The notes under the pieces were generated by a model, which was not told where the DNA came from, did no database searches, and saw only the letters and a list, made by a program, of their open reading frames with translations. DNA of 64,000 nucleotides from Ardenticatena maritima (GTDB lineage: Bacteria; Chloroflexota; Anaerolineae; Ardenticatenales; Ardenticatenaceae): positions 992,001-1,056,000 of the forward strand of contig NZ_LGKN01000003.1 in NCBI RefSeq assembly GCF_001306175.1. The letters run 5' to 3'. The position numbers were made by a program, and so were the translations under genes. Below are positions 16,599 to 32,279 of this stretch, piece by piece. Position 1 is the first letter of the stretch. Each line of letters opens with the position of its first letter.

Positions 16599-16937
16599 CT
16601 AGAACCGTCCTTCACGGGCGCGCCGAAAACGCGGCGCATACGTCGCTTCGAGATTCAACACCCACGCCTTGAACGGCGCGCGCGATTCACGCTCAAACAG
16701 AGAGAGGGCGCGCAACACGCCTTCCAGCAGCGTATCGGCTTCCGCCTCGCGCCCCTCGCGCGCCAATTGCCGCAGACGCGTTTCGTAGGGTAGCAAGACC
16801 CGTTCAATCAGCAAGTCGGCGGCTTGCGCCGGTTCTGTGGCAAAGAAACAGGACGCACCGGTGGCGTCCCAAACATCCTCCACAGTCAACGCTTCCAGCG
16901 CCGCCAGAATGTCGGCGGCGATTTCCTCAACCGTCAT
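16599..16937 (-). CDS. Unknown 112-residue soluble protein coupled to the ProRS-like gene
   Basis: Begins MTVEEIAADILAALEALTVED; predicted all-alpha, charged, with no membrane segment or recognisable motif. The start is the ATG that overlaps the 3' end of the ProRS-like gene by 11 bases, behind a GGGGGCAGG site; the longer frame lies wholly inside that gene. The overlap suggests translational coupling and perhaps a shared function. No family recognised. Confidence 0.65.
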   Translation of the reverse strand: MTVEEIAADILAALEALTVEDVWDATGASCFFATEPAQAADLLIERVLLPYETRLRQLAREGREAEADTLLEGVLRALSLFERESRAPFKAWVLNLEATYAPRFRRAREGRF

Positions 16938-18612
16938 GAACCTGCCCCCTTGGCTTCCAGGTCGCCAGCGCATCCAGCACGGCTTCCCCCACACCTTCGG
17001 GCGAAACCAGACGCACATCCTCGTGCGTGCGCACTTTCATCTCGACGCCCCCCCGTTTGAGCGCCTTCGCGCCCACGGTGAGCCGCACCGGCGCCCCCAC
17101 CAGGTCGGCGTCGTTGAATTTGACGCCGGCGCGCACATCGCGGTCATCATCCAGCACGTACAGGCCGCTCTGCACCAGCGTCGCCGCCACCTGTTCGGCA
17201 ACCGCCTCGACATCGGGGTCGTTGTGCCCCAAACGCACAAGGTAGACATCATACGGCGCGACGGCAGGCGGCAGACACAGCCCATGCGCATCGTGGTGTT
17301 GCTCCGCGAGCACGCCCATCATGCGGTGAATGTCCAGCCAGGTGCGCACCAGAAACGGTGTGCGCGGCGTGCCTTCCTTTGTCAAAAAAGCCACCCCCGC
17401 CCGCTCAGGCAAGGACGCGCCCAGCAGTTCAACCCGCCCGATTTCCAGCCCATGCGCCAGCCGAAGCGGCGCGCCGCAAACCGCGCACGGCGCGCCTTCC
17501 CCCGCCGCGGCAATGTCGGCAATCACATCGGGCGTGTAATCGCGCCCAACGTTGACGTTGAGGAAGTGCGCATCGGGTTCATTCGCCCCGGAGACAAGGT
17601 TGGGAGATTGGGCGACAAGGTCGTCCACCACCACAACCGCCTGCTCGCGCTGAATGCCAATGGGCGAGGCAAACCCCGGTTCAGCCCCCACCGCGCGGAT
17701 TTCGTCTTCCGTCGCCGCACGCAACGCTTTCATCCCAGCGGCGCGCGCTACCTTCTGCGGTTCGACGTCCATATCGCCGCGCACCAGCGCCATGACGAGT
17801 TTCTCCTCGTCGGCGTGGGTGGGTTGGCCTGTGAAAAAGACCACCTTTGCCGTGCGCGAGGGGGGCACATTGAGGAACGCAGCCAGCGAGGCAATGGTGT
17901 TTGTGCCGGGCGTCGCGACTTTTTGCAACGGTTGCGCGCTTTCAGCAGGCGGTTCAGGCTTGCGAAACGTCGCCACCTGACGGGTCGCCACATCACCGCA
18001 GGCAGGGCACATGAGCAATGTTTCATCGCCATCCGGGAACAGCGCCACGAAGGCATCCGCCTCGCCATCGCCAGCCGCCACCGCGGTGCGCACAGTGAGA
18101 AGCGCGGAGACGCCCATCTGCGCCGACCACGCCAGCCACGCGGCGCGCCACGTCTCCGCACGCGCCCGCGCATCGGGTTCGTCGGCTTCCAGCGCCAGCA
18201 GTTCAAGCCCCACACGCTCACGCGCCCGCAACCATCCCCAGCCGGGGCGGGCATCGGCGTAGCGGCGGGCAGCAAAGTGGAAGAAAAGCCGCGGTATGTC
18301 GCGATACGAATGGAGCGCGTGCCGCGCCAAAGCCAGCAACTCCTCCGTCACCGAGGGGGCGAAGGACGAAACCGCCACCTCCGCCGCTTCCCAGGTGGCT
18401 AGCATCTCCCGCAAGGCGGCTTCCAGACGCAACCGCATGCGACGCCCCGGCGGGCATTCCGCCAGCACACCGTTGGCTAGCGGGCGCACATAGCCCGCCC
18501 GCCGCAAGAAGGTGTAGCCCGGCGTCTCGGCGTCGGCGGGCGCTTCACGCAAAGTCTGCCACAACAGGCGGGAAAGGCGAATGTGGTTCGGGTGCATGAT
18601 GTTCGGGCTCAT
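16927..18612 (-). CDS. Prolyl-tRNA synthetase-like protein with degenerate catalytic motifs
   Basis: The 561-residue protein aligns along its whole length with bacterial prolyl-tRNA synthetase: a motif 1 region (TFLRRAGYVRPLANGVL), an editing-type insertion (VATPGTNTIASLAAFL onward, about residues 240-390) and a well-kept anticodon-binding domain (DDDRDVRAGVKFNDADL). The catalytic core has changed: the motif 2 KFRDExRPR becomes RRYADARPG, REFxMKDAYSF becomes RERVGLELLAL, and the motif 3 GCYGIGxSR becomes RTWLDIHR. The adenylation site is therefore probably inactive or altered. It could be a HisZ-like regulatory or editing paralogue, or a divergent true enzyme if the genome has no other proS. 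Start ambiguity: MSPNIMHPN offers two ATGs. Confidence 0.8.
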   Translation of the reverse strand: MSPNIMHPNHIRLSRLLWQTLREAPADAETPGYTFLRRAGYVRPLANGVLAECPPGRRMRLRLEAALREMLATWEAAEVAVSSFAPSVTEELLALARHALHSYRDIPRLFFHFAARRYADARPGWGWLRARERVGLELLALEADEPDARARAETWRAAWLAWSAQMGVSALLTVRTAVAAGDGEADAFVALFPDGDETLLMCPACGDVATRQVATFRKPEPPAESAQPLQKVATPGTNTIASLAAFLNVPPSRTAKVVFFTGQPTHADEEKLVMALVRGDMDVEPQKVARAAGMKALRAATEDEIRAVGAEPGFASPIGIQREQAVVVVDDLVAQSPNLVSGANEPDAHFLNVNVGRDYTPDVIADIAAAGEGAPCAVCGAPLRLAHGLEIGRVELLGASLPERAGVAFLTKEGTPRTPFLVRTWLDIHRMMGVLAEQHHDAHGLCLPPAVAPYDVYLVRLGHNDPDVEAVAEQVAATLVQSGLYVLDDDRDVRAGVKFNDADLVGAPVRLTVGAKALKRGGVEMKVRTHEDVRLVSPEGVGEAVLDALATWKPRGQVHDG

Positions 18613-19638: not shown

Positions 19639-20841
19639 TCATGTGCGATATTCGGCGTTGATGGAAACGTAATCGTACGAAAAATCACACGTCCAGACGG
19701 TGGCGTCGCCCGGTTCGCCGCCAATATCCAGGTCTATTGTTATGTCAACTTCTGACAAAATGCGCAAGGCTTCGTCTTCATCAAACGGCAGCGGTTTGCC
19801 ATTGGCAAGCACCTGCAACGGGCCGAACCAGAGGCTGGCGCGGTCGGGGTCGAACGGCACGCCCGCCCGACCAGCCGCAGCGAGCACACGTCCCCAGTTG
19901 GCGTCGCGCCCAAAGAGCGCCGTTTTCACCAACGGCGAGGTGGCGATGGTGCGCCCAATCTGGCGCGCCGCCTCGAAACTACCGGCATTGCGCACGTGAA
20001 TGGTGACGTGCTTGGTGGCGCCTTCGCCGTCAAACGCGATTTGCTTGGCCAATGCAATGCATACCTCGGTCAACGCATCACGAAACGTGGGAAACGCGGG
20101 GCTTTCCAGCGTGATGATATCGTTCGCCGCCGCCCCGTTTGCCAGCACCAGGCAAGTGTCATTGGTGCTCGTATCGCCGTCCACGCTAATGGCGTTGAAC
20201 GAGCGTTCAACAGCGTAGTGCAGCGCAGCATCCAGGGCTTCAGCCGTGATGAGCGCATCCGTCACGATGAACGCCAGCATGGTCGCCATGTTGGGGTGAA
20301 TCATGCCCGCCCCCTTCGCGATTCCCGCCAGCGTGATGGTCTTCTCGTCGAGCGTGCATGTTGCCGAAGCCATTTTGGGGCGCGTGTCGGTGGTCATAAT
20401 CGCGCGGGCGGCCGCTTGCGCCGCTTCGGGCGTTGCATCGAGCATTTGGGCGGCGAGCGTAATGCCATAGGCGATTTTGTTCATGGGCAGCGGCACGCCA
20501 ATCACGCCGGTGCTCATCACAAAGACGCCGCTCTCCTCAGGCAACGCCAGCGCCTCCGCCGTCAGGCGCGCCATTTCGGCGGCGTCACGCAGCCCTTGCT
20601 CGCCCGTGACAGCGTTGGCGTTCTTGCTGTTGACGACGACGGCGCGCACATCGCGCGTGCGTTGCAGGAGCGCCATGTCGAAGAGGACCGGCGCGGCTTT
20701 GACAAGGTTCTGCGTGAACACAGCGGACGCCACGCAAGGGCGGTCGCTGACAATCAACGCCATGTCAAGCGCGCCGTCTGGCTTCAAGCCGGCATGCACC
20801 CCACACGCACGAAATCCCGGCACATCGGTTATGTAGCGCAT
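19639..20841 (-). CDS. argJ: Bifunctional ornithine acetyltransferase / N-acetylglutamate synthase
   Basis: Moves the acetyl group from N-acetylornithine to glutamate, closing the acetyl cycle of arginine synthesis. The 400-residue precursor has the self-cleavage motif KGAGMIHPNMATML, where the peptide bond before the threonine is cut to give the two chains. The start is the ATG of MRYITDVPGF behind a perfect AGGAGG, not the longer frame. Whether it also has the synthase activity cannot be seen from sequence; the separate ArgA-like gene in the same run may be redundant with it. Confidence 0.95.
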   Translation of the reverse strand: MRYITDVPGFRACGVHAGLKPDGALDMALIVSDRPCVASAVFTQNLVKAAPVLFDMALLQRTRDVRAVVVNSKNANAVTGEQGLRDAAEMARLTAEALALPEESGVFVMSTGVIGVPLPMNKIAYGITLAAQMLDATPEAAQAAARAIMTTDTRPKMASATCTLDEKTITLAGIAKGAGMIHPNMATMLAFIVTDALITAEALDAALHYAVERSFNAISVDGDTSTNDTCLVLANGAAANDIITLESPAFPTFRDALTEVCIALAKQIAFDGEGATKHVTIHVRNAGSFEAARQIGRTIATSPLVKTALFGRDANWGRVLAAAGRAGVPFDPDRASLWFGPLQVLANGKPLPFDEDEALRILSEVDITIDLDIGGEPGDATVWTCDFSYDYVSINAEYRT

Positions 20842-20862
20842 AGCGCCTCCTGTTCTCATCGT

Positions 20863-22668: not shown

Positions 22669-23943
<1,275 letters not shown>

Positions 23944-23972
23944 GCTTCCTCCTCTTTTGCTGAAAAATGGTG

Positions 23973-25106
23973 CTATCGAGTTTGTTCTGCCAGCGCAAAT
24001 GCCGCGACACACGCCAGGCTGTGGAACGTGCCTAGCGTCACCTGCGCGGCAATGGCTTCACGCGACAAGATGACGACTTCGTGGGCTTCCAAATCATCCG
24101 AGGGCGGGCGTTCACCCTGATAGGGCACAATGCCATCGGCAAGGTAGAAATGCGCCCGACCACTCCCACGGTTGACATCCACGACATACGCGCCCAGCGA
24201 AACCCACCGTTCCGCAATGTAGCCGGTCTCTTCCAGCAATTCGCGCTCGGCGGCGCGGCGCGGCGTTTCACCCGCATCCACCACACCGGCGGGAAACTGG
24301 CGGAAAATACACCCCACGCCGTGGCGATACTGCCGCAACGTGAGATACCGCCCATCGGCAAAACGGGGCACCACCAACACGTACTCCGGCGATTTCACGC
24401 GGTAAAAGTCCTCAACCGGTGCGGGGTCGTCGGGTTCGCGCTCGATGGTATCGGCCACGAGCGTCAACCACGGTTCGGCGGTGTAGAGAATGCGTGTCGC
24501 GCGCGTTTCCCACGGTTGGAGCGTCTCATCGCCAGCATACGTGCGCAAATGCGTCGCAAACCAGGCGTCTGTGCGGTCGGCAATCGGCAACACCCAGCGG
24601 CGCGTTTCGGCGCGGTAGGCGCGCGCCCAGCGCGGGTTGCACGCTGTGTGCAGATAGCGCACGTTGTCGAGGCGGTCAGCCAGTTTGACAAGGCGCGCCG
24701 CCAGCGGGGCGTCGAGCAGGGCGGTGAAGTAGGCGGCGTCGCGGGCTTCGGTGTCGCCGTTTTCAGCCGGCGGCTTGGTCAGCCAGCGCACCAGGTCGGC
24801 GACCGTCGGGGAAATCTGCGCCGCCACATCCTCAACCGTGAACGCCGAATCTTCAACCACATCATGCAGAAGCGCCGCCGCCACCATTTCGGCGTCGGTC
24901 AGACCGCGTTCTTCGGCAAGAATGAGCGCCACCCGCAAGGGGTGCACGAGATAGGGGGTGCCTTCTTTGCGGCGCTGGTTGGTGTGGGCGCGAGAAGCGA
25001 CATCATAGGCGCGGTGCACCAACGTTGGTGCGGTTGCGGATGGGAAAGTGCTCAGCAAGCGTTCCCAGAGAGCCTCCGGCGGGACAAATGGATTGAGCAT
25101 GTGCAC
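23973..25106 (-). CDS. HD-domain phosphohydrolase fused to a Nudix hydrolase
   Basis: A 377-residue two-domain protein. Residues about 30-190 form a SpoT/MESH1-like HD domain: [18 protein letters not shown] and [10 protein letters not shown] supply the metal-binding histidines and aspartates. Residues about 235-375 form a Nudix domain with an exact Nudix box ([20 protein letters not shown]). HD enzymes of this type remove the 3' phosphate of ppGpp or NADPH; Nudix enzymes hydrolyse nucleotide diphosphate linkages. The fusion suggests sequential processing of one nucleotide or general nucleotide cleaning. Both active sites look intact. Confidence 0.88.
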
Positions 25107-25169: not shown

Positions 25170-25985
25170 TCAGCGCTGGACACGCTGTTCGGACAAACGC
25201 CCTGCGCGTTGGGCGTCTTCAAAGGTGGGCGTGCTGATCCAGGTGATACTCCCCACGGTGATGAGCACCAGCACCGCCGCCAACCCAGCCAGCCAGAGGT
25301 CAATGCGCCCCAGCAGACCGGTCGCCAGCAGAAGCACCACCGCCACGAGCGTCAACCAGAACAGCCGTCGGTCGAGGCTGGAGACGCGATACCAGAACGC
25401 CGCCGCCTGTTCACGCGGGGCAAGGTCGGCAATCTCCACAGCCCGCTGCGCATGCAAGCGTGCCAGCACAGGCAGACCAGCGGCACGATACGCGCGCGCC
25501 AGCAACAGATGGACGCGCGCCCGCGCCGCCTCATCATCCAGCAACGGGATGACTTCATGATACAAGGTGATGGCGTGCCCAACCTGATTCAACTGCAAGA
25601 AGGCATCCGCCAACGCCAGGCGCGCCTCCACATGCGCCGGGTTGTATTCCAGCGCGGTGTGGGCGGTTTGCGTAGCCGCCAGCAAATGCCCCTGTTGCAC
25701 CAAAATGCGCGCCCGCAACGCCAGCACATCCGCCCGTAGCACGTCGTCTTCATACACCCGCCCCTGCGCCTCATCCAGCACCAGCAACGCCTCGGCGAAG
25801 CGCCCCGCTTCTACCAGCCAGCGCGCTTCCAGCAGAACAACGCGCACCACCTGTTCGGGCGTGCGCGCCAGACGGCGCACCTGGCGGGCGATTTCACGCA
25901 CCGCGGCGGGGTCGTCCAACTCGTCGGACGCGAACAGGCGACGCGCTTTGGCAAATTCATCTTCAAATGTGGGACGTGCGGGCAT
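25170..25985 (-). CDS. TPR-repeat protein with C-terminal membrane anchor
   Basis: A 271-residue protein: helical TPR-like repeats to about residue 200 (for example ALEYNPAHVEARLALADAF), then two membrane helices (LFWLTLVAVVLLLATGLLG and the next stretch) and a short charged tail. Probably a cytoplasm-facing scaffold. Its ATG overlaps the stop of the ArgA-like gene in a TGATG arrangement, so translation is coupled. The function is unknown. Confidence 0.8.
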   Translation of the reverse strand: MPARPTFEDEFAKARRLFASDELDDPAAVREIARQVRRLARTPEQVVRVVLLEARWLVEAGRFAEALLVLDEAQGRVYEDDVLRADVLALRARILVQQGHLLAATQTAHTALEYNPAHVEARLALADAFLQLNQVGHAITLYHEVIPLLDDEAARARVHLLLARAYRAAGLPVLARLHAQRAVEIADLAPREQAAAFWYRVSSLDRRLFWLTLVAVVLLLATGLLGRIDLWLAGLAAVLVLITVGSITWISTPTFEDAQRAGRLSEQRVQR

Positions 25986-26539
25986 CACGTGCGAACCTCC
26001 ACCGATATCAGGTTGGGTTGCCAGGGCGACACAGGTAGCGATGATGCGGTTTCATCCGCCGCACGTGTGGCACGCTCTTCATCCAGCACCAGGAGCATGG
26101 CGACTTCGTCGCACCGGTTGCGCTTGGGGCACATTTTGCAATCCAGCCAGACCTTTTGCGGGAAAATGTGCATCGGCACGACTTGAAACCCCAAGCGCTC
26201 AAAAAATTGAACCTGGTACGTCAGCGCAAACACACGCGCCAACTGCAATTCGCGCGCCTCATCGAGCAAGGCTTCGACAAGACGCCGCCCAACGCCCTGC
26301 CCCTGCGCCGATTCGGCCACCGCCAGCGAGCGGATTTCGGCCAAATCGTGCCACATCAGGCGAAGCGCACCGCACCCTACAATCGTGCCGTCCTCATCCT
26401 CGGCGACGACGAATTCGCGCAGTTGCTCGTACACCTGCAACAACGACTTCGGGAGCATGAGCCCTTGCATGGCGTAATGGTTGATGAGTTCGGCAATGGC
26501 CGGTGCGTCTTCAATACGTGCTTTGCGAATGGTAATCAT
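25985..26539 (-). CDS. argA: N-acetylglutamate synthase, short GNAT (mycobacterial ArgA) type
   Basis: Likely first step of arginine synthesis, acetylating glutamate with acetyl-CoA. The 184-residue GNAT protein shows HYAMQGLMLPKSLLQVYE near the start, the acetyl-CoA loop SAQGQGVGRRL and the C-terminal family signature (FFERLGFQVV, FPQKVWLDC, CPKRNRCDEVAM). This short form is known from actinobacterial ArgA. It lies between argD and the TPR gene in the arginine run, which supports the assignment over a generic acetyltransferase. Confidence 0.85.
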   Translation of the reverse strand: MITIRKARIEDAPAIAELINHYAMQGLMLPKSLLQVYEQLREFVVAEDEDGTIVGCGALRLMWHDLAEIRSLAVAESAQGQGVGRRLVEALLDEARELQLARVFALTYQVQFFERLGFQVVPMHIFPQKVWLDCKMCPKRNRCDEVAMLLVLDEERATRAADETASSLPVSPWQPNLISVEVRT

Positions 26540-26602: not shown

Positions 26603-27811
26603 TCACGCGGTAACTTCATGCGCCAACACGGTGGCAAAGGCTGCAACGGCTTCATCTACATGGGTGCGCTCCACAATCAGCGGCGGCAAGAAGCGCACTG
26701 TGTTGCGCCCGGCGGGCACGGTCAGCAAGCCATGCGACCACAACGCCGCCACCACATCCGCCGCCGCGACGCGCTCCACCAATTCCACGCCCCACATCAA
26801 CCCCAGGCCGCGCACTTCGCGCACCAGCGGGCTGGACGCCGCGACCGCCCGCAACTGCTCGCCCAGGTACGCCCCCACATCGCGCACATGCGCCAAAAAG
26901 GCGGCATCGCGAATGCGGTTGAACACATCACGCGCAACGGCGGTGATGAGCGGGCTTCCCGCGAAGGTGCTGCCATGGTCGCCCGGCGCGAGGGCGTCGG
27001 CGATGGTCTGGCGCATCAAAATCGCGCCGATGGGCAAGCCCCCGCCCAAGGGTTTCGCCAGCGCCATGAGGTCCGGCTCAACGCCGTACTGCTCATACGC
27101 CCAGAGCGTACCGGTGCGCCCCAGCCCACACTGCACCTCGTCGAAGATGAGCGCCGCGCCGTAGGCATCGCACAAGCGGCGCAAGCCCTGCAAAAACTCG
27201 CGCGTGGCGGGCTGAATGCCCCCCTCGCCCTGCACCGGCTCGACAATCACCGCGGCGGTCTTCTCGCCAATCACGGCTTGGGCGCTTTCCAGATTGTTGA
27301 ATTCAGCGCGGCGCACACCGCCAATCAGCGGCTCGAAGGGCTTGCGGTATTTTTCGTTGGCGGTCACGCTGAGCGCACCCATGGTGCGCCCGTGGAACGC
27401 GTGCGAAAAGGTCACGATTTCGTACTTCTCATCATCCCCGGAAGTGGTGCGCGCCCACTTGCGCGCAAATTTCAACGCCCCTTCGGTGGCTTCGGTGCCG
27501 CTGTTGCAGAAAAAGACCCGGTCGGCGAAACTCGCTTCGCACAAATCACGCGCCAGCAAGGCATGCGGCGCGGTGTGGTAGAGGTTGCTCACGTGAACCA
27601 GTTGGCGCGCCTGCTCCGCCAGCACGTCCGCCATGCGTGCGTCGGCATGCCCCAGCGCGTTGACGGCAATCCCCGCCACAAAATCAAGGTAGCGCCGCCC
27701 CTCGGTGTCGTAGAGATAGACGCCTTCGCCGCGCTCCAACACAAAAGGCGCGCGTTTGTAGGTGGGCGCAAGGTAGGTTTGTTCCAGCGCGATAATGTCC
27801 TGGGCGTTCAT
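26603..27811 (-). CDS. argD: Acetylornithine aminotransferase
   Basis: PLP-dependent class III aminotransferase that turns N-acetylglutamate semialdehyde into N-acetylornithine. The 402-residue protein has GTEATEGALKFAR, the cofactor Asp in LIFDEVQCGLGRTG, and the Schiff-base lysine in LAKPLGGGLPIGA. The ATG overlaps the argB stop by four bases (ATGA). Confidence 0.96.
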   Translation of the reverse strand: MNAQDIIALEQTYLAPTYKRAPFVLERGEGVYLYDTEGRRYLDFVAGIAVNALGHADARMADVLAEQARQLVHVSNLYHTAPHALLARDLCEASFADRVFFCNSGTEATEGALKFARKWARTTSGDDEKYEIVTFSHAFHGRTMGALSVTANEKYRKPFEPLIGGVRRAEFNNLESAQAVIGEKTAAVIVEPVQGEGGIQPATREFLQGLRRLCDAYGAALIFDEVQCGLGRTGTLWAYEQYGVEPDLMALAKPLGGGLPIGAILMRQTIADALAPGDHGSTFAGSPLITAVARDVFNRIRDAAFLAHVRDVGAYLGEQLRAVAASSPLVREVRGLGLMWGVELVERVAAADVVAALWSHGLLTVPAGRNTVRFLPPLIVERTHVDEAVAAFATVLAHEVTA

Positions 27812-28599
27812 TGGGCTGCTCCTTCTGTTGATTGTTGCTCCTCATCGGCTTGCACAAGTGTGCCGGCGGTCTCGCCCCGCAGGAAGGCTTCCACGCCGTC
27901 CAGGTCGCTCATCAAGACGGCGCGCACGCCGGCTTGAAGCGCTGCAAGCGCGGCGCGCACTTTGGGAATCATGCCGCCAACAATAACGCCCTCGGCGATG
28001 AGCCGTTCGGCAACCGAGGGCGTGAGGTGCGTCAATACGCGGTCGTCCTGCATGACGCCGCGCACATTGGTCAAGAAGACCAGGGCGTCCGCATGCAGGG
28101 CGGACGCGACGGCTTGCGCCACGTGGTCGGCGTTGACGTTGTAAATGTGCCCATCTTCACCTAACGAGATGGGCGCGAGGCAGGGCACAAACCCCGCGCC
28201 AAGCAGCGCCTGCAATCGGTCGGCGGCAACCTCCGTCGGGATACCAACCCACCCCAAATCGCCGGCGTGGTGCTCCAATTTGCGCACGCGCACCAAACCG
28301 GCGTCCACGCCGCTCAGCCCCAGCGCGGGGACGCCGGCGCAGACCAGCGCCTGCACCAGTTGCATGCTGGCGGTGCCCACCATGCCCATCACTGCCACAT
28401 CGCGGACGGCGTCATCGGTCACGCGCAAACCTTCCACAAAGCGGCTTTCAATCCCCAAACGGGCGGCGAGGTCGGTTGTGCCGCGCCCCCCACCATGCAC
28501 GATGACGGGCGGCGTCGGCATCGCCGCGACGGTGCGCGCCAGCCGGTTCAAAAACGCGCCATCGTCCAGTTGGTGCCCGCTGATTTTGAGAACGAGCAT
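27808..28599 (-). CDS. argB: Acetylglutamate kinase
   Basis: Phosphorylates N-acetylglutamate, normally the feedback-controlled step. The 263-residue amino-acid-kinase-fold protein starts MLVLKISGHQL, has the glycine loop VIVHGGGRGT and GGMIPKVRAAL near the C-terminus. It lacks the N-terminal helix that in arginine-sensitive enzymes makes hexamers, so feedback inhibition by arginine is doubtful; that would fit control at the leader. The AGGAGG site sets the start. Confidence 0.95.
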   Translation of the reverse strand: MLVLKISGHQLDDGAFLNRLARTVAAMPTPPVIVHGGGRGTTDLAARLGIESRFVEGLRVTDDAVRDVAVMGMVGTASMQLVQALVCAGVPALGLSGVDAGLVRVRKLEHHAGDLGWVGIPTEVAADRLQALLGAGFVPCLAPISLGEDGHIYNVNADHVAQAVASALHADALVFLTNVRGVMQDDRVLTHLTPSVAERLIAEGVIVGGMIPKVRAALAALQAGVRAVLMSDLDGVEAFLRGETAGTLVQADEEQQSTEGAAQ

Positions 28600-28600
28600 G

Positions 28601-29650
28601 CTACACCTCCTGCACGCGCGCACGCGCCACGGGCATCAATCCGGCGCGCTCATCAAAGCCAAAACGCACGTTCATGTTCTGAATGGCTTGCCCGGCCGCC
28701 CCCTTCACCAGGTTGTCAATCGTGCTCACAATGATGAGTTGGTCGCGTTCGGGCACGGGGTGCAGACTGATGGCGCAGCGATTGGTGCGCACGGTGTGCG
28801 CGAGCGTGGCGGTTGCGCCTTCGGGCAAAAGCCAGATGAAGGGTTCATCGGCGTAGGTTTCGGCGTAGAGCGCCCGCAGGTCGTCGGCGCTGAGCCCTTG
28901 CGGCCAGGGGACGTAGATGGTGCTGAGAATGCCGCGCGAGACGGGGAGCAAGTGCGGCGAGAAGACAATGCCGCGCGGCGCGTGGTCGCCTGCGAGGGCG
29001 TGCAATTCCTGCTCGATTTCGGCGACGTGGCGATGGACGTGCCCAATGTTGTACGGCTTCAGGTTTTCATTGACTTCGACGAAGAGTGAGCCGAGTTTGG
29101 GCGAACGCCCGGCGCCGCTGACGCCGCTTTTGCTGTCGGCGATGATGGTGGCGCCGTCGAGTAAGCCGGCGTTCAGCAAGGGCGCCACCGCCAGCAAAAT
29201 ACTGGTGGGGTAGCAACCGGGGTTGGCAATCAACCGCGCCTGGCGCAACGCTTCGCGCCGCCATTCGGTCAACCCGTACACGGCTTCGGCAAGCAAATGG
29301 GGCGCGGTGTGCGGTTGGTTGTACCAGCGCGCGTAGACATCCGCATCATGCAAACGGTGGTCGGCGGAAAGGTCAATCACCACCGCGCCGGCATCCAGCC
29401 CGCGCTGCGCCCATTCTTGCGCCGCACCGTGCGGCAAACAGAGGAAGAGCACATCGGCGTCGCTCAACGAAACGTCTTCAACCGCCTGCAACTGAATGTC
29501 AAGGTCGGTTGGGTAGAGTGCGGACAACGGTTTGCCGGCATCGCTCCGCGCCGTTGCGAAGGCAATCTCCACATGGGGGTGGTACGCCAGCCATTGGAGT
29601 AATTCAAACCCTGTGTATCCAGTTGCGCCTAACACGCCTGCTCGAATCAT
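28601..29650 (-). CDS. argC: N-acetyl-gamma-glutamyl-phosphate reductase
   Basis: Reduces N-acetylglutamyl phosphate to the semialdehyde with NADPH. The 349-residue protein has the cofactor loop GATGYTGFELLQWL and the catalytic cysteine in NPGCYPTS. It is the first enzyme gene after the leader region; its stop lies one base before the argB ATG. Control by the upstream attenuator is the natural reading. Confidence 0.96.
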   Translation of the reverse strand: MIRAGVLGATGYTGFELLQWLAYHPHVEIAFATARSDAGKPLSALYPTDLDIQLQAVEDVSLSDADVLFLCLPHGAAQEWAQRGLDAGAVVIDLSADHRLHDADVYARWYNQPHTAPHLLAEAVYGLTEWRREALRQARLIANPGCYPTSILLAVAPLLNAGLLDGATIIADSKSGVSGAGRSPKLGSLFVEVNENLKPYNIGHVHRHVAEIEQELHALAGDHAPRGIVFSPHLLPVSRGILSTIYVPWPQGLSADDLRALYAETYADEPFIWLLPEGATATLAHTVRTNRCAISLHPVPERDQLIIVSTIDNLVKGAAGQAIQNMNVRFGFDERAGLMPVARARVQEV

Positions 29651-29725
29651 GGAACCCCCTCACTTGATTGGTTGATGGTTGCCACCCGGCAGCGTAGCCC
29701 CATCGCAACGGCACACCGGGGTATG

Positions 29726-29758
29726 AAAAAACCCCCCAGACGCTGTGTCTGGGGGGTT
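29726..29758 (-). terminator. Attenuator terminator in the arg operon leader
   Basis: On the minus strand AACCCCCCAGAC pairs perfectly with GTCTGGGGGGTT (12 bp, five-base loop) and is followed by a run of T. It lies between the predicted promoter and argC, so it acts inside the transcript. Its 5' arm contains CCAGACACA, which is exactly complementary to TGTGTCTGG at the end of the leader-peptide frame. Confidence 0.92.
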
Positions 29759-29791
29759 GGTTACCGCGCTCTTGCGTTCGCCCAAGCACGC

Positions 29792-29872
29792 CTAACCAGA
29801 CACATCGTCTGGAGCGACCATGCGAGGGCGACGAGGGTATCGGTTGTTGAGCGAACGCACTTGATACACCAT
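29792..29872 (-). CDS. Arginine-rich leader peptide of the arg operon (26 residues)
   Basis: The frame begins MVYQVRSLNNRYPRRPR and ends VSG, then TAG. Five of 26 residues are arginine, three of them within codons 14-17. The stop codon falls directly after the TGTGTCTGG segment that can pair either with CCAGAC just upstream or with the terminator arm. This is the geometry of a his/trp-type attenuator: stalling on arginine codons would free the segment to form the antiterminator. The ribosome site is weak, and a TTG three codons upstream is an alternative start. Confidence 0.78.
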   Translation of the reverse strand: MVYQVRSLNNRYPRRPRMVAPDDVSG

Positions 29873-29913
29873 GTTGAACAAACCAACCACTTCTGTTTTG
29901 ATGAGTGGTGTAC

Positions 29914-29942
29914 AGTATAAACATCTCGAGGGCGTTTGTCAA
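29914..29942 (-). promoter_or_regulatory. Predicted strong promoter of the arg operon
   Basis: Consensus TTGACA, 17-base spacer, TATACT on the minus strand. The predicted transcript starts about 35 bases before the leader-peptide ATG and about 255 bases before argC. Nothing else was recognised in the rest of the 29651-30062 intergenic region. Confidence 0.85.
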
Positions 29943-30062
29943 TCACCACGCGCCGGGTTGCGCCCCGCTCTCACTCAATGGGGTGAGCGGCGAACGCGAG
30001 ATATTTGCCTGTTCTCTCCATTCTCCGCATCATGAACCAGAACAACTGAGGGGAGAGAGACC

Positions 30063-32279
30063 ATGCCGAGCCAATCCACACCTCACCGTGGACGCATTCA
30101 AGCGATTGAACTGAAACGCGCCACCTACCGGTATGCGGGCTTCGTCGTTGTCGAAACGGATGAGGGCGTATCGTATCGGCTTCCCATGGCGGGGACGGTT
30201 GCGCAATGGCTGCGTGTAGGGCAACGTGTGCGCCTGAGCGCGGAGACAACAACGCCGGGATTTGATGAGTATGCATTGCGCACGAGCCGCGCGCGTGTCT
30301 GGCCGCTGTTTGAACGCACCTACACGCTGGAACGACGCTCGCTTTTCTCCGACCGCCTGCTCTACACCTATCGGTTGCGCGCCCGTGAAGCGCGCTACGA
30401 GCGCGACTACGCCGCCATTGTGGAACTGGAACAGTACCACTACGCCTCGCGGGAGCGCCTGCTGGCGCTCTGGCATTGTGAACGCTGTGGGGCGGAGCAA
30501 GCCGCCAACGCACGCCCCGACTGTCCTCACGGGCATGGTCCCATGCGCTTCCTCGACCTGCGCGACGCCACCCGCGCCTCGCGCTTTTTGCTGCTTGAAC
30601 TGCTTGACCGCCAACCCTACGAACCGTCTATCGTGGGCTATGTGCGCGTTGACCCACCGCTTCCGCTGCTGCATCGGCGGCGTCCCGACGGCACGCTTGA
30701 CCGCGATATCCGACGCCGCATTTTCCCGCCTGAATGGTTCGACCATCCGTTTCACCCCAACCAGCATGTGCCCCCCGAAGCCTGGTGGGATGAACAAGGG
30801 CGCGCGCTCGCCAACGCCCGTTCACCCGTGGCACGGCTGGCGCGCGTCGTGATACACCCCGACTACCGCGCCGACGGGCTGGGCGTGCAAGCCATCCGGT
30901 GCATGGTGGATTGGGTGCGTGAACGCCGCATCCCCGACATGCGCGAACGCAAACGCGCCATTGAGACGGTGGCGCAAATGGCGCGGTTTCACCCGTTCAT
31001 GGAAAAAGCGGGGTTTGTCTTTCTCTTTGAAACGGCGTCGGGGCGTCCGACGCTCTACCTCCCGCTCGATGAAACCGCGCAAAACGCTATCCAGCGCTTT
31101 TTGCAAACGGATGAAGTGGCGCGCACGCACGGCGGGCGACTCTACCATTCGCACCTGCGCCCGGTCGAACCGCTCAGCAGCGCCATCGTGCTGCGCGAGG
31201 TGACGAAAACCTATCACCACACGCTCAACCTTGAGGGGGTGTCCGAACCGGTACGCGAAGCGCTTGCCGCGTTTGGCGTCCAAGAACGCGATATTGAGAC
31301 GCATATTTTCCGCCGCGCCACACTCACGCTTGAACCGGGAACCATCAACGCCGTTGTGGGGGCGTCTGGAAGTGGAAAAACCACGTTTCTGCGCCTGCTC
31401 ATTGGGGCGGCAACCGGGCGCACCGAGCCGCTCTACCAGCCGGACAGCGGCGAAATTCACATGCCCGACAATGTGCGCCTGCAAGCGCTCATTCCGAACG
31501 AAGCCGAACCAGCGCTCGGCACGCAAGCCGTGCTCGAAGCCATCTACACGCTCACAGGCGACACCACCGAAGCCATTGAAATCCTCAACGCCGCCGGGCT
31601 TGCCGACGCCGTGCTCTTCCGCGCGCCCTATGCTACGCTTTCCACCGGTCAGAAAGCCCGCGTGCAGGTGGCGTGGGCGCTCGCCCATCGCCCCAATCTG
31701 CTCATCATTGACGAATTCGCCGCCCACCTAGACTCCCGCACCGCGAGCCGCGTAGGGCGCAAGGTTGCCGAACTGGCGCGCCGCCTGGGCATGACGCTGG
31801 TGCTGGTCACGCACCGCCCGGAACTCCTGCATGTGCTCGAACCCGACGCCGTCATCCTCGCCGGCTACGGGACGCTCTACCGCGCCGACGACTTGCCCGA
31901 ATTGGGGCTTTTCATCCGCGAACCCTACGCCAGCCTGGTTGTGGACGGCAAGAAAACGTGGGAAATCCGCACCCGCCCCACGCATATCCGCGGACGCATC
32001 GGCATCATCAGCGGAGGGCGTGTCATCGGCACCGCCACCCTGCGCGACACCCTCGGTCCCTTCTCGCCTGAGGAGTTGCACGCCCACATCGAAAAGCATC
32101 ACGCGACACCCGACGTGTTGAACGCCTACGCCCGTGGTCGCCCGCTCTACGCCTGGGTGCTCGACGACGCCCAACGCCTGCACACGCCCGTGCCTATTCG
32201 CCGCAAACCGGGGCATCAACTCTGGGCGAAGTTGGAGCGCGAGGAAGAGCGCCACGAGACAGGCGACGAGGAAGCATAA
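30063..32279 (+). CDS. Zn-ribbon / GNAT / ABC-type ATPase / ASCH fusion protein
   Basis: A 738-residue soluble protein with several domains in a row: an N-terminal beta-rich part (to about residue 120), a small zinc-binding motif (HCERCG, later CPHGHG; about residues 138-160), a GNAT-like region with IHPDYRADGLGVQAI (about 262-278) and FHPFMEKAGF, then an ABC-type ATPase with Walker A GASGSGKTT (about 433), signature LSTGQKARVQ (about 526) and Walker B LLIIDEF (about 546), and finally an ASCH domain (PYASLVVDGKKTWEIRTR, about 622 on). No membrane segment is seen, so it is not a transporter. ASCH and GNAT domains suggest RNA or nucleobase modification; the function is unknown. The start follows GGGGAGAG. 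Confidence 0.82.
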   Translation: MPSQSTPHRGRIQAIELKRATYRYAGFVVVETDEGVSYRLPMAGTVAQWLRVGQRVRLSAETTTPGFDEYALRTSRARVWPLFERTYTLERRSLFSDRLLYTYRLRAREARYERDYAAIVELEQYHYASRERLLALWHCERCGAEQAANARPDCPHGHGPMRFLDLRDATRASRFLLLELLDRQPYEPSIVGYVRVDPPLPLLHRRRPDGTLDRDIRRRIFPPEWFDHPFHPNQHVPPEAWWDEQGRALANARSPVARLARVVIHPDYRADGLGVQAIRCMVDWVRERRIPDMRERKRAIETVAQMARFHPFMEKAGFVFLFETASGRPTLYLPLDETAQNAIQRFLQTDEVARTHGGRLYHSHLRPVEPLSSAIVLREVTKTYHHTLNLEGVSEPVREALAAFGVQERDIETHIFRRATLTLEPGTINAVVGASGSGKTTFLRLLIGAATGRTEPLYQPDSGEIHMPDNVRLQALIPNEAEPALGTQAVLEAIYTLTGDTTEAIEILNAAGLADAVLFRAPYATLSTGQKARVQVAWALAHRPNLLIIDEFAAHLDSRTASRVGRKVAELARRLGMTLVLVTHRPELLHVLEPDAVILAGYGTLYRADDLPELGLFIREPYASLVVDGKKTWEIRTRPTHIRGRIGIISGGRVIGTATLRDTLGPFSPEELHAHIEKHHATPDVLNAYARGRPLYAWVLDDAQRLHTPVPIRRKPGHQLWAKLEREEERHETGDEEA

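Follow-up and report, generated by a model that had tools for sequence, protein, structure and literature searches.

What controls arginine synthesis in Ardenticatena maritima, and what is the role of the short, arginine-rich reading frame that lies between a promoter and a strong terminator just ahead of argC? The answer developed here is that the element is very likely a transcription attenuator of the ribosome-mediated type, with charged tRNA-Arg as its signal. The case rests on sequence and comparison, without expression data, and ribosome stalling, termination in vivo and the response to arginine are inferred. The element lies within the window, by which we mean the whole 64,000-nucleotide stretch of DNA that was analysed, and consists of the following parts, all on the minus strand:

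29914..29942, minus strand: sigma-70-type promoter, TTGACA-17-TATACT (sequence read and promoter scan; both boxes kept in the same-genus genome G001)
29792..29872, minus strand: leader peptide ORF, MVYQVRSLNNRYPRRPRMVAPDDVSG and stop, 26 codons with 5 Arg codons (start codon inferred)
29822..29833, minus strand: sensor codons CGT CGC CCT CGC, encoding Arg14, Arg15, Pro16 and Arg17 (sequence read)
29796..29812, minus strand: 1:2 hairpin CCAGAC-GATGT-GTCTGG (anti-antiterminator) over the last leader codons, −7.9 kcal/mol
29796..29804, minus strand: antiterminator strand TGTGTCTGG, adjoining the leader stop codon (sequence, pairing and fold)
29744..29752, minus strand: terminator 5′-arm segment CCAGACACA, complement of the antiterminator strand (sequence and pairing test)
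29726..29758, minus strand: intrinsic terminator AACCCCCCAGACACAGCGTCTGGGGGGTT with T run, 12-bp stem, −23.7 kcal/mol

This anatomy is shown. A preliminary description, made from the sequence alone, had claimed the promoter, the 26-codon frame with five Arg codons, the stem, the 12-bp terminator and a 9-base complement, all of which hold at the coordinates listed above. The promoter (29942-29914) matches the consensus at 11 of 12 positions and is the sole sigma-70-like site in 28500-31000, where shuffling leads one to expect 0.5 ± 0.7; G001, from the same genus, also has TTGACA-17-TATACT, and the flanks of both boxes have diverged. The 5′ UTR, measured from the −10 box to the ATG, is about 40 nt, longer than in leaders with near-promoter starts. 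Arginines occupy codons 6, 11, 14, 15 and 17 of the leader ORF, the exact start of which is uncertain because the ATG lacks a clear Shine-Dalgarno sequence and an in-frame upstream GTG offers an alternative (MVGLFNMVYQ...). Codon 17 begins 12 nt 5′ of CCAGAC, and the TAG stop lies one base past the CCAGAC-GATGT-GTCTGG hairpin. Further downstream, CCAGACACA (29752-29744) is the exact 9-base complement of TGTGTCTGG (29804-29796), and the 12-bp stem that harbors it (29758-29730) is the strongest terminator that the terminator scan found in 28500-31000. None of 200 shuffles folds as well as the leader RNA (z −2.95), and none of 200 equals its leader/terminator complementarity.

In the proposed mechanism, the promoter would fire and a ribosome would translate the Arg-rich leader. 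With ample Arg-tRNA, the ribosome would arrive at the stop codon and cover TGTGTCTGG, or depart and let CCAGAC/GTCTGG close; CCAGACACA would be left free, the terminator would form, and transcription would end ahead of argC. With scarce Arg-tRNA, the ribosome would stall at Arg codons 14-17 with its leading edge over CCAGAC, and TGTGTCTGG would pair with CCAGACACA as the terminator arm emerges, such that no terminator forms and argC and the genes behind it would be transcribed. Folding the leader for both conformations, a check that the preliminary description had proposed, produced terminator and antiterminator according to the position of the ribosome. In the ribosome-free fold, the window leader forms the 1:2 hairpin plus the terminator, of which only the terminator is left once a ribosome occupies the stop codon; a stall at any of codons 14, 15 and 17, before the terminator 3′ arm is made, gives the antiterminator, at about −31 kcal/mol. 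At equilibrium, the terminator of the full-length RNA (−23.7 kcal/mol) beats the antiterminator core (−13.9 kcal/mol), and the switch must therefore be kinetic and cotranscriptional, as in trp and his. Given the commonly accepted size of the ribosome footprint and the 12 nt from the start of codon 17 to CCAGAC, a ribosome held at this codon is expected to extend as far as CCAGAC. That it stalls, that the stems compete kinetically and that the switch responds to arginine are nonetheless inferences. The sequence features by which such an attenuator is recognized are present: clustered cognate codons in a short ORF (its translation is inferred), an intrinsic terminator separating the leader from the first structural gene, an antiterminator built from a leader segment and the terminator 5′ arm, a 1:2 hairpin overlapping the leader ORF that is exact in the window and weaker across relatives, and sensor codons at a distance from which a stalled ribosome would mask segment 1 and spare segment 2.

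Conservation of the element is shown by comparison with relatives. Against G001, identity is about 87-100% from roughly codon 6 through the terminator, compared to about 60% in the 5′ UTR and 37% directly past the terminator. Upstream of argC in the same class, the combination of promoter, short Arg-rich ORF and terminator recurs repeatedly, with Arg clusters such as KPRRPRK, FIRFPRIRRPE, RSPRSPRRMQ, FPRRPRPPR and RRLRRRQ; named carriers include Anaerolinea sp. CH6 (L060), Caldilineaceae MAGs (L061, L062) and Anaerolineaceae bacterium BD1 (L064). Arg leaders also occur in Chloroflexota beyond the class, in two families, G125/G157 and G226/G249 (G226 read by eye). Would such frames be picked up irrespective of their arginines? 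Leaders were chosen blind to Arg content, by the best promoter and terminator pair and the first ATG, which yielded 44 leaders from 66 own-class argC upstreams. Arginine makes up 19.4% of their codons versus 12.7% in dinucleotide shuffles, and the best 6-codon window holds a mean of 3.02 Arg versus 1.74 ± 0.11 in dinucleotide-shuffled ORFs, an excess of about 12 standard deviations; at least three Arg in six codons are found in 73% of the leaders and in 20% of the shuffles. All six Arg codons (CGC, CGT, AGG, CGA, CGG, AGA) are used across these leaders, which, together with the statistics, indicates selection on the amino acid rather than on one nucleotide string. The peptides have nothing in common beyond the Arg cluster and the residues imposed by the RNA.

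These counts carry several qualifications. The relatives are known from genome assemblies, often fragmented ones, in which some reading frames may be interrupted; p-values here and below are nominal, as kinship of the genomes is ignored and independence overstated. About one fifth of the own-class argC upstreams had no terminator or leader in the scan, and among the irregular leaders G029 has an early stop. Non-Chloroflexota argC loci, confounded as a control, were dropped from the counts; there the scan often takes the end of rpsI (KARRxFQFSKR-like, with its terminator) for an Arg-rich leader. Three further observations concern individual loci. G005:C80 (L005, L295) retains the core and the Arg codons, but the reading frame of its Arg cluster lacks a usual start codon, conceivably through an assembly frameshift or decay. 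An argC leader with a conserved core, L277 (G500:C3), has no in-frame Arg codons, and might either depart from the codon rule or reflect an error in frame. The argC leaders L043 and L032 (G035, G068) are longer, end in LRRVRRRRL, and use a different terminator family (AGCCAGCTTTCCGGGCTTCCGGGAAGCTGGCT).

The competing stems are retained as well. A multiple alignment of 25 cores had terminator types too mixed for one covariance model, and pairing was tested per sequence. In a set of 57, the strongest duplex that a leader can form with its terminator 5′ arm has a mean of −20.7 kcal/mol versus −15.5 kcal/mol in shuffles, with p<0.05 individually in 34 of 57 (Fisher 3e-30, uncorrected for relatedness). 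GTCTGG/CCAGAC is the leader/terminator pairing in many relatives. Elsewhere the two strands have changed together: in G016, G051 and G082, terminator CCGGAC, CCGGGC and CCGGGC meet leader GTCCGG, GTCCGG and GCCCGG, respectively, and pairing is kept despite altered sequence as GTGTGTG/CACACAC (G009, G077) and GAGGTCA/TGACCTC (G060). The 1:2 or protector hairpin is less well supported across relatives (Fisher 4e-6, only 13 of 57 individually below 0.05), and is not evident in every one. The preliminary description had proposed looking upstream of argC in relatives for Arg codons and compensating stem changes; both are kept, changed sequences still pair, and its his/trp attenuation geometry and mechanism are thus supported by comparative data, with termination in vivo inferred.

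The strongest evidence that the codons are the sensor comes from genes other than argC. A search of 100 relatives for the RNA-core pattern (a hairpin, then a downstream CCAGAC) returned matches at such genes too, with Lys codons ahead of homocitrate synthase (KKQSKAKKPD, PKKQSESKKPD) and lysX (SKSKRGGKKPD), Pro codons ahead of proS (SPNSPNPTPD) and Arg codons ahead of argG (IKRRPEEEPD), all on the same RNA core. A wider motif, CYRGAC N3-9 GTCTGGNTAG, was then sought in 298 genomes of the class and matched in 85, and the context of many matches was examined. Kept were 46 distinct leaders with a classifiable downstream gene within 500 nt; their sensor codons lie outside the motif definition. The leader frame was taken from CCR-GAC, as a stop-based frame mis-read some leaders. 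Short motifs served to classify most downstream genes; an NCBIfam check, made in representatives only, confirmed homocitrate synthase, LysX, ProS and ArgG. In the 14 codons before Pro-Asp, Arg, Lys and Pro average 2.95, 0.30 and 1.40 ahead of argC and argG (n=20), 1.12, 3.54 and 0.38 ahead of homocitrate synthase, lysW and lysX (n=24), and 0.5, 1.0 and 3.5 ahead of proS, where examples are few (n=2). The commonest of the three residues corresponds to the downstream pathway in 43 of 46 leaders, a match that none of 100,000 label permutations reaches. This correspondence is shown, and it indicates that the translated codons are what is sensed. By extension of the proposed mechanism, the same core fitted with Lys or Pro sensor codons would control lysine-pathway operons and proS in the class.

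A second device of this kind, its sensor being a run of Lys codons (RKKKCKKAK), stands in A. maritima itself, ahead of the LysW-pathway lysine genes lysW-lysX:

About 405950-406125 of G000:C9 (L344:6951-7125): A. maritima Lys leader, MPDMLLTQPTHNIRKKKCKKAKPSPLRGSG... (lysW recognised by eye)

There, GCGGGGGTCTGG can pair with CCAGACCTCCGC of the terminator, giving this leader its own antiterminator. No leader was found in the region directly before the argC paralogue of this genome, the Lys leader sitting further up, before lysW, nor at other transcarbamylase-family genes (PF02729: argF and relatives). Translation of many cassette members is probably leaderless, an inference from consensus promoters: of 49 leaders that have a good promoter, 26 place their start codon no more than 12 nt from where the −10 box ends. 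Some arrangements deserve separate mention. Two tandem Lys-codon cores precede one homocitrate synthase gene (L271:347 and 523, G063:C13), and two cores precede a lysW-like gene in L285 (G409:C10). Pro-rich leaders with the same core in L262, L268, L299 and L340 stand before a metallophosphoesterase-like gene, not proS; in L299 a MazG-like ORF comes first. A mixed Lys/Arg leader (VKRSPREEPD) precedes a LysX homologue in L314 (G053:C111), which could be a LysX/ArgX-type enzyme of an arginine or dual pathway.

Taken together, the argC element is not a solitary curiosity, and the scope of the preliminary description widens to one member of a class-wide, codon-swappable family. A bolder reading, which we regard as likely, is that Anaerolineae (the class, per the named relatives) carry a modular attenuator cassette in which Arg, Lys or Pro sensor codons are exchanged on one core, and that several copies per genome do the work of protein repressors at genes for arginine synthesis, for lysine synthesis by the LysW pathway and for prolyl-tRNA synthetase. 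As part of the same likely reading, the core would be CCRGAC-N5-GTCTGG-N-stop plus a terminator holding CCAGAC, often with a leaderless start.

What would such a device control at this locus, and is a repressor available instead? Behind the leader lie, in order, argC, argB, argD, an argA-like GNAT gene, two other genes, argG, another gene and argJ:

28601..29650, minus strand: argC, N-acetyl-gamma-glutamyl-phosphate reductase, first gene of the cluster (NCBIfam TIGR01850, 400 bits)
27808..28623, minus strand: argB, acetylglutamate kinase (TIGR00761)
26603..27811, minus strand: argD-type acetylornithine transaminase (TIGR00707)
25985..26539, minus strand: GNAT N-acetyltransferase, argA-like (NF005840 above cut-off; NF005921, amino-acid N-acetyltransferase, under cut-off)
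22669..24012, minus strand: argG, argininosuccinate synthase (TIGR00032/NF001770)
19639..20859, minus strand: argJ (TIGR00120/NF003802)

The two genes between the argA-like gene and argG encode a TPR-like protein and a RelA/SpoT-like HD plus Nudix protein. The latter (window 23973-25106, minus strand), directly ahead of argG, has its RelA/SpoT-like HD region at residues 33-178 (TIGR00691) and a Nudix-like C-terminal region. Further down the cluster, a proS-like gene (prolyl-tRNA synthetase, by eye) occupies 16927-18612 of the minus strand, where an abutting neighbor leaves no room for a Pro leader upstream. The preliminary description had remarked that bacterial arg operons are usually under ArgR/AhrC control; the class to which A. 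maritima belongs lacks ArgR. This absence is shown: PF02863 matched in none of 101 own-class genomes (A. maritima and 100 relatives from within its class), while the positive control gave matches in 8 of 14 control genomes. In a phylum sample, 56 of 251 genomes have ArgR, none of them own-class, and none of 11 argC upstreams examined in ArgR-bearing genomes combines a terminator with an Arg cluster at the level of three Arg in six codons. An ArgR/AhrC-controlled arginine operon requires ArgR to be encoded in the genome, and here it is absent.

Among other explanations, nascent-peptide arrest of the SpeFL or fungal arginine attenuator peptide type survives best; in that case the ribosome would be halted by the leader peptide itself as it binds arginine or a metabolite inside the exit tunnel. 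In its favor, Arg is clustered near the leader C-terminus, and Arg-rich peptides can slow ribosomes. Against it, the conserved peptide expected of the SpeFL type is missing, the peptides being unalike outside the Arg cluster and the RNA-imposed residues; moreover, sensor codons turn to Lys or Pro with the pathway, and all six Arg codons are in use, making this explanation very improbable. Similarly, the leader might couple translation to Rho-dependent or RNase control instead of an intrinsic terminator, for which orf34 with its two Arg codons ahead of Salmonella speF is a precedent (PMC6386406). A strong intrinsic terminator with a T run and a complementary antiterminator strand are kept in most members, however, and this possibility, too, is remote. 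A third proposal, that a T-box or metabolite riboswitch drives the terminator and the short ORF is incidental, can draw on arginine T-boxes stated for other bacteria (PMC1262725), but is all but ruled out: Rfam at gathering score gave no T-box or riboswitch in the window or 17 related loci, and none at E 10 in the leader, such that the expected Stem I specifier loop and T-box antiterminator find no match, and codon identity follows the pathway inside an open frame. Weak Rfam matches to the trpB motif and Phe_leader fell far below cut-off and were dismissed. Finally, a plain terminator of an upstream transcript beside a chance Arg-rich frame, for which the commonness of Arg codons in GC-rich random sequence (12.7% in the dinucleotide shuffles) might be invoked, is virtually excluded by class-wide recurrence with promoter, ORF and terminator, the Arg excess of about 12 standard deviations, linked stem changes, and conservation in G001 that ends at the terminator.

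The ribosome-mediated attenuator that remains the preferred reading is of a familiar kind. The trp, his, leu, thr, phe and ilv attenuators of Proteobacteria likewise combine a leader ORF with pathway codons, alternative stems and an intrinsic terminator, followed by an operon for that pathway; they differ from the present case in its amino acids (Arg, Lys and Pro), its phylum (Chloroflexota), its single core with exchangeable sensor codons and its start often near the −10 box. In Actinobacteria, trp, ilv, leuS and trpS attenuators were predicted, and the same survey saw no RNA structure before arginine operons and cites arginine T-boxes (PMC1262725). As of a 2010 survey, leader-peptide systems were known only from Proteobacteria and Actinobacteria, to which it added Firmicutes (PMC2965389). 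The nearest Arg-codon leader found is orf34/SpeFL of Salmonella speF, a short, arginine-sensitive ORF with consecutive Arg codons and alternative RNA structures; its downstream machinery is different, as it controls polyamine synthesis via Rho, RNase G and translation, with no intrinsic terminator before an arginine operon (PMC6386406). At Pseudomonas carAB, a branch-point gene of arginine and pyrimidines, a leader with proposed attenuation is also described, with a leader peptide noted in P. aeruginosa, but this system is described as pyrimidine-linked, with ArgR sites at its promoter, and is no class-wide Arg-codon leader (PMC4997734). T-box riboswitches, too, place several amino-acid specificities on one RNA scaffold at matching genes; their specificity stems from direct tRNA binding at a specifier codon, whereas here it resides in translated leader-ORF codons. 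The open-access literature searched (subscription papers lay outside its scope) held no argC leader attenuation in bacteria, no Lys or Pro leaders, and no attenuation in Chloroflexota or Anaerolineae. The preliminary description's claim of novelty is adjusted to match, as the architecture is the known trp/his type and no new principle; the novelty, as far as found, lies in the amino acids and the phylum concerned and in the exchangeable cassette.

For the biology of the class, the finding offers an answer to how arginine and LysW-type lysine synthesis are probably controlled in a large group without ArgR, and it extends leader-peptide attenuation to a new phylum and to three more amino acids. 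The exchange of sensors on one core amounts to a natural codon-swap experiment, supporting codon-level sensing without a mutant, and the cassette illustrates how a regulatory RNA can be redirected from one pathway to another. Amino-acid reporters could be built directly on its design, which would also allow transcription–translation coupling to be tested in Chloroflexota.
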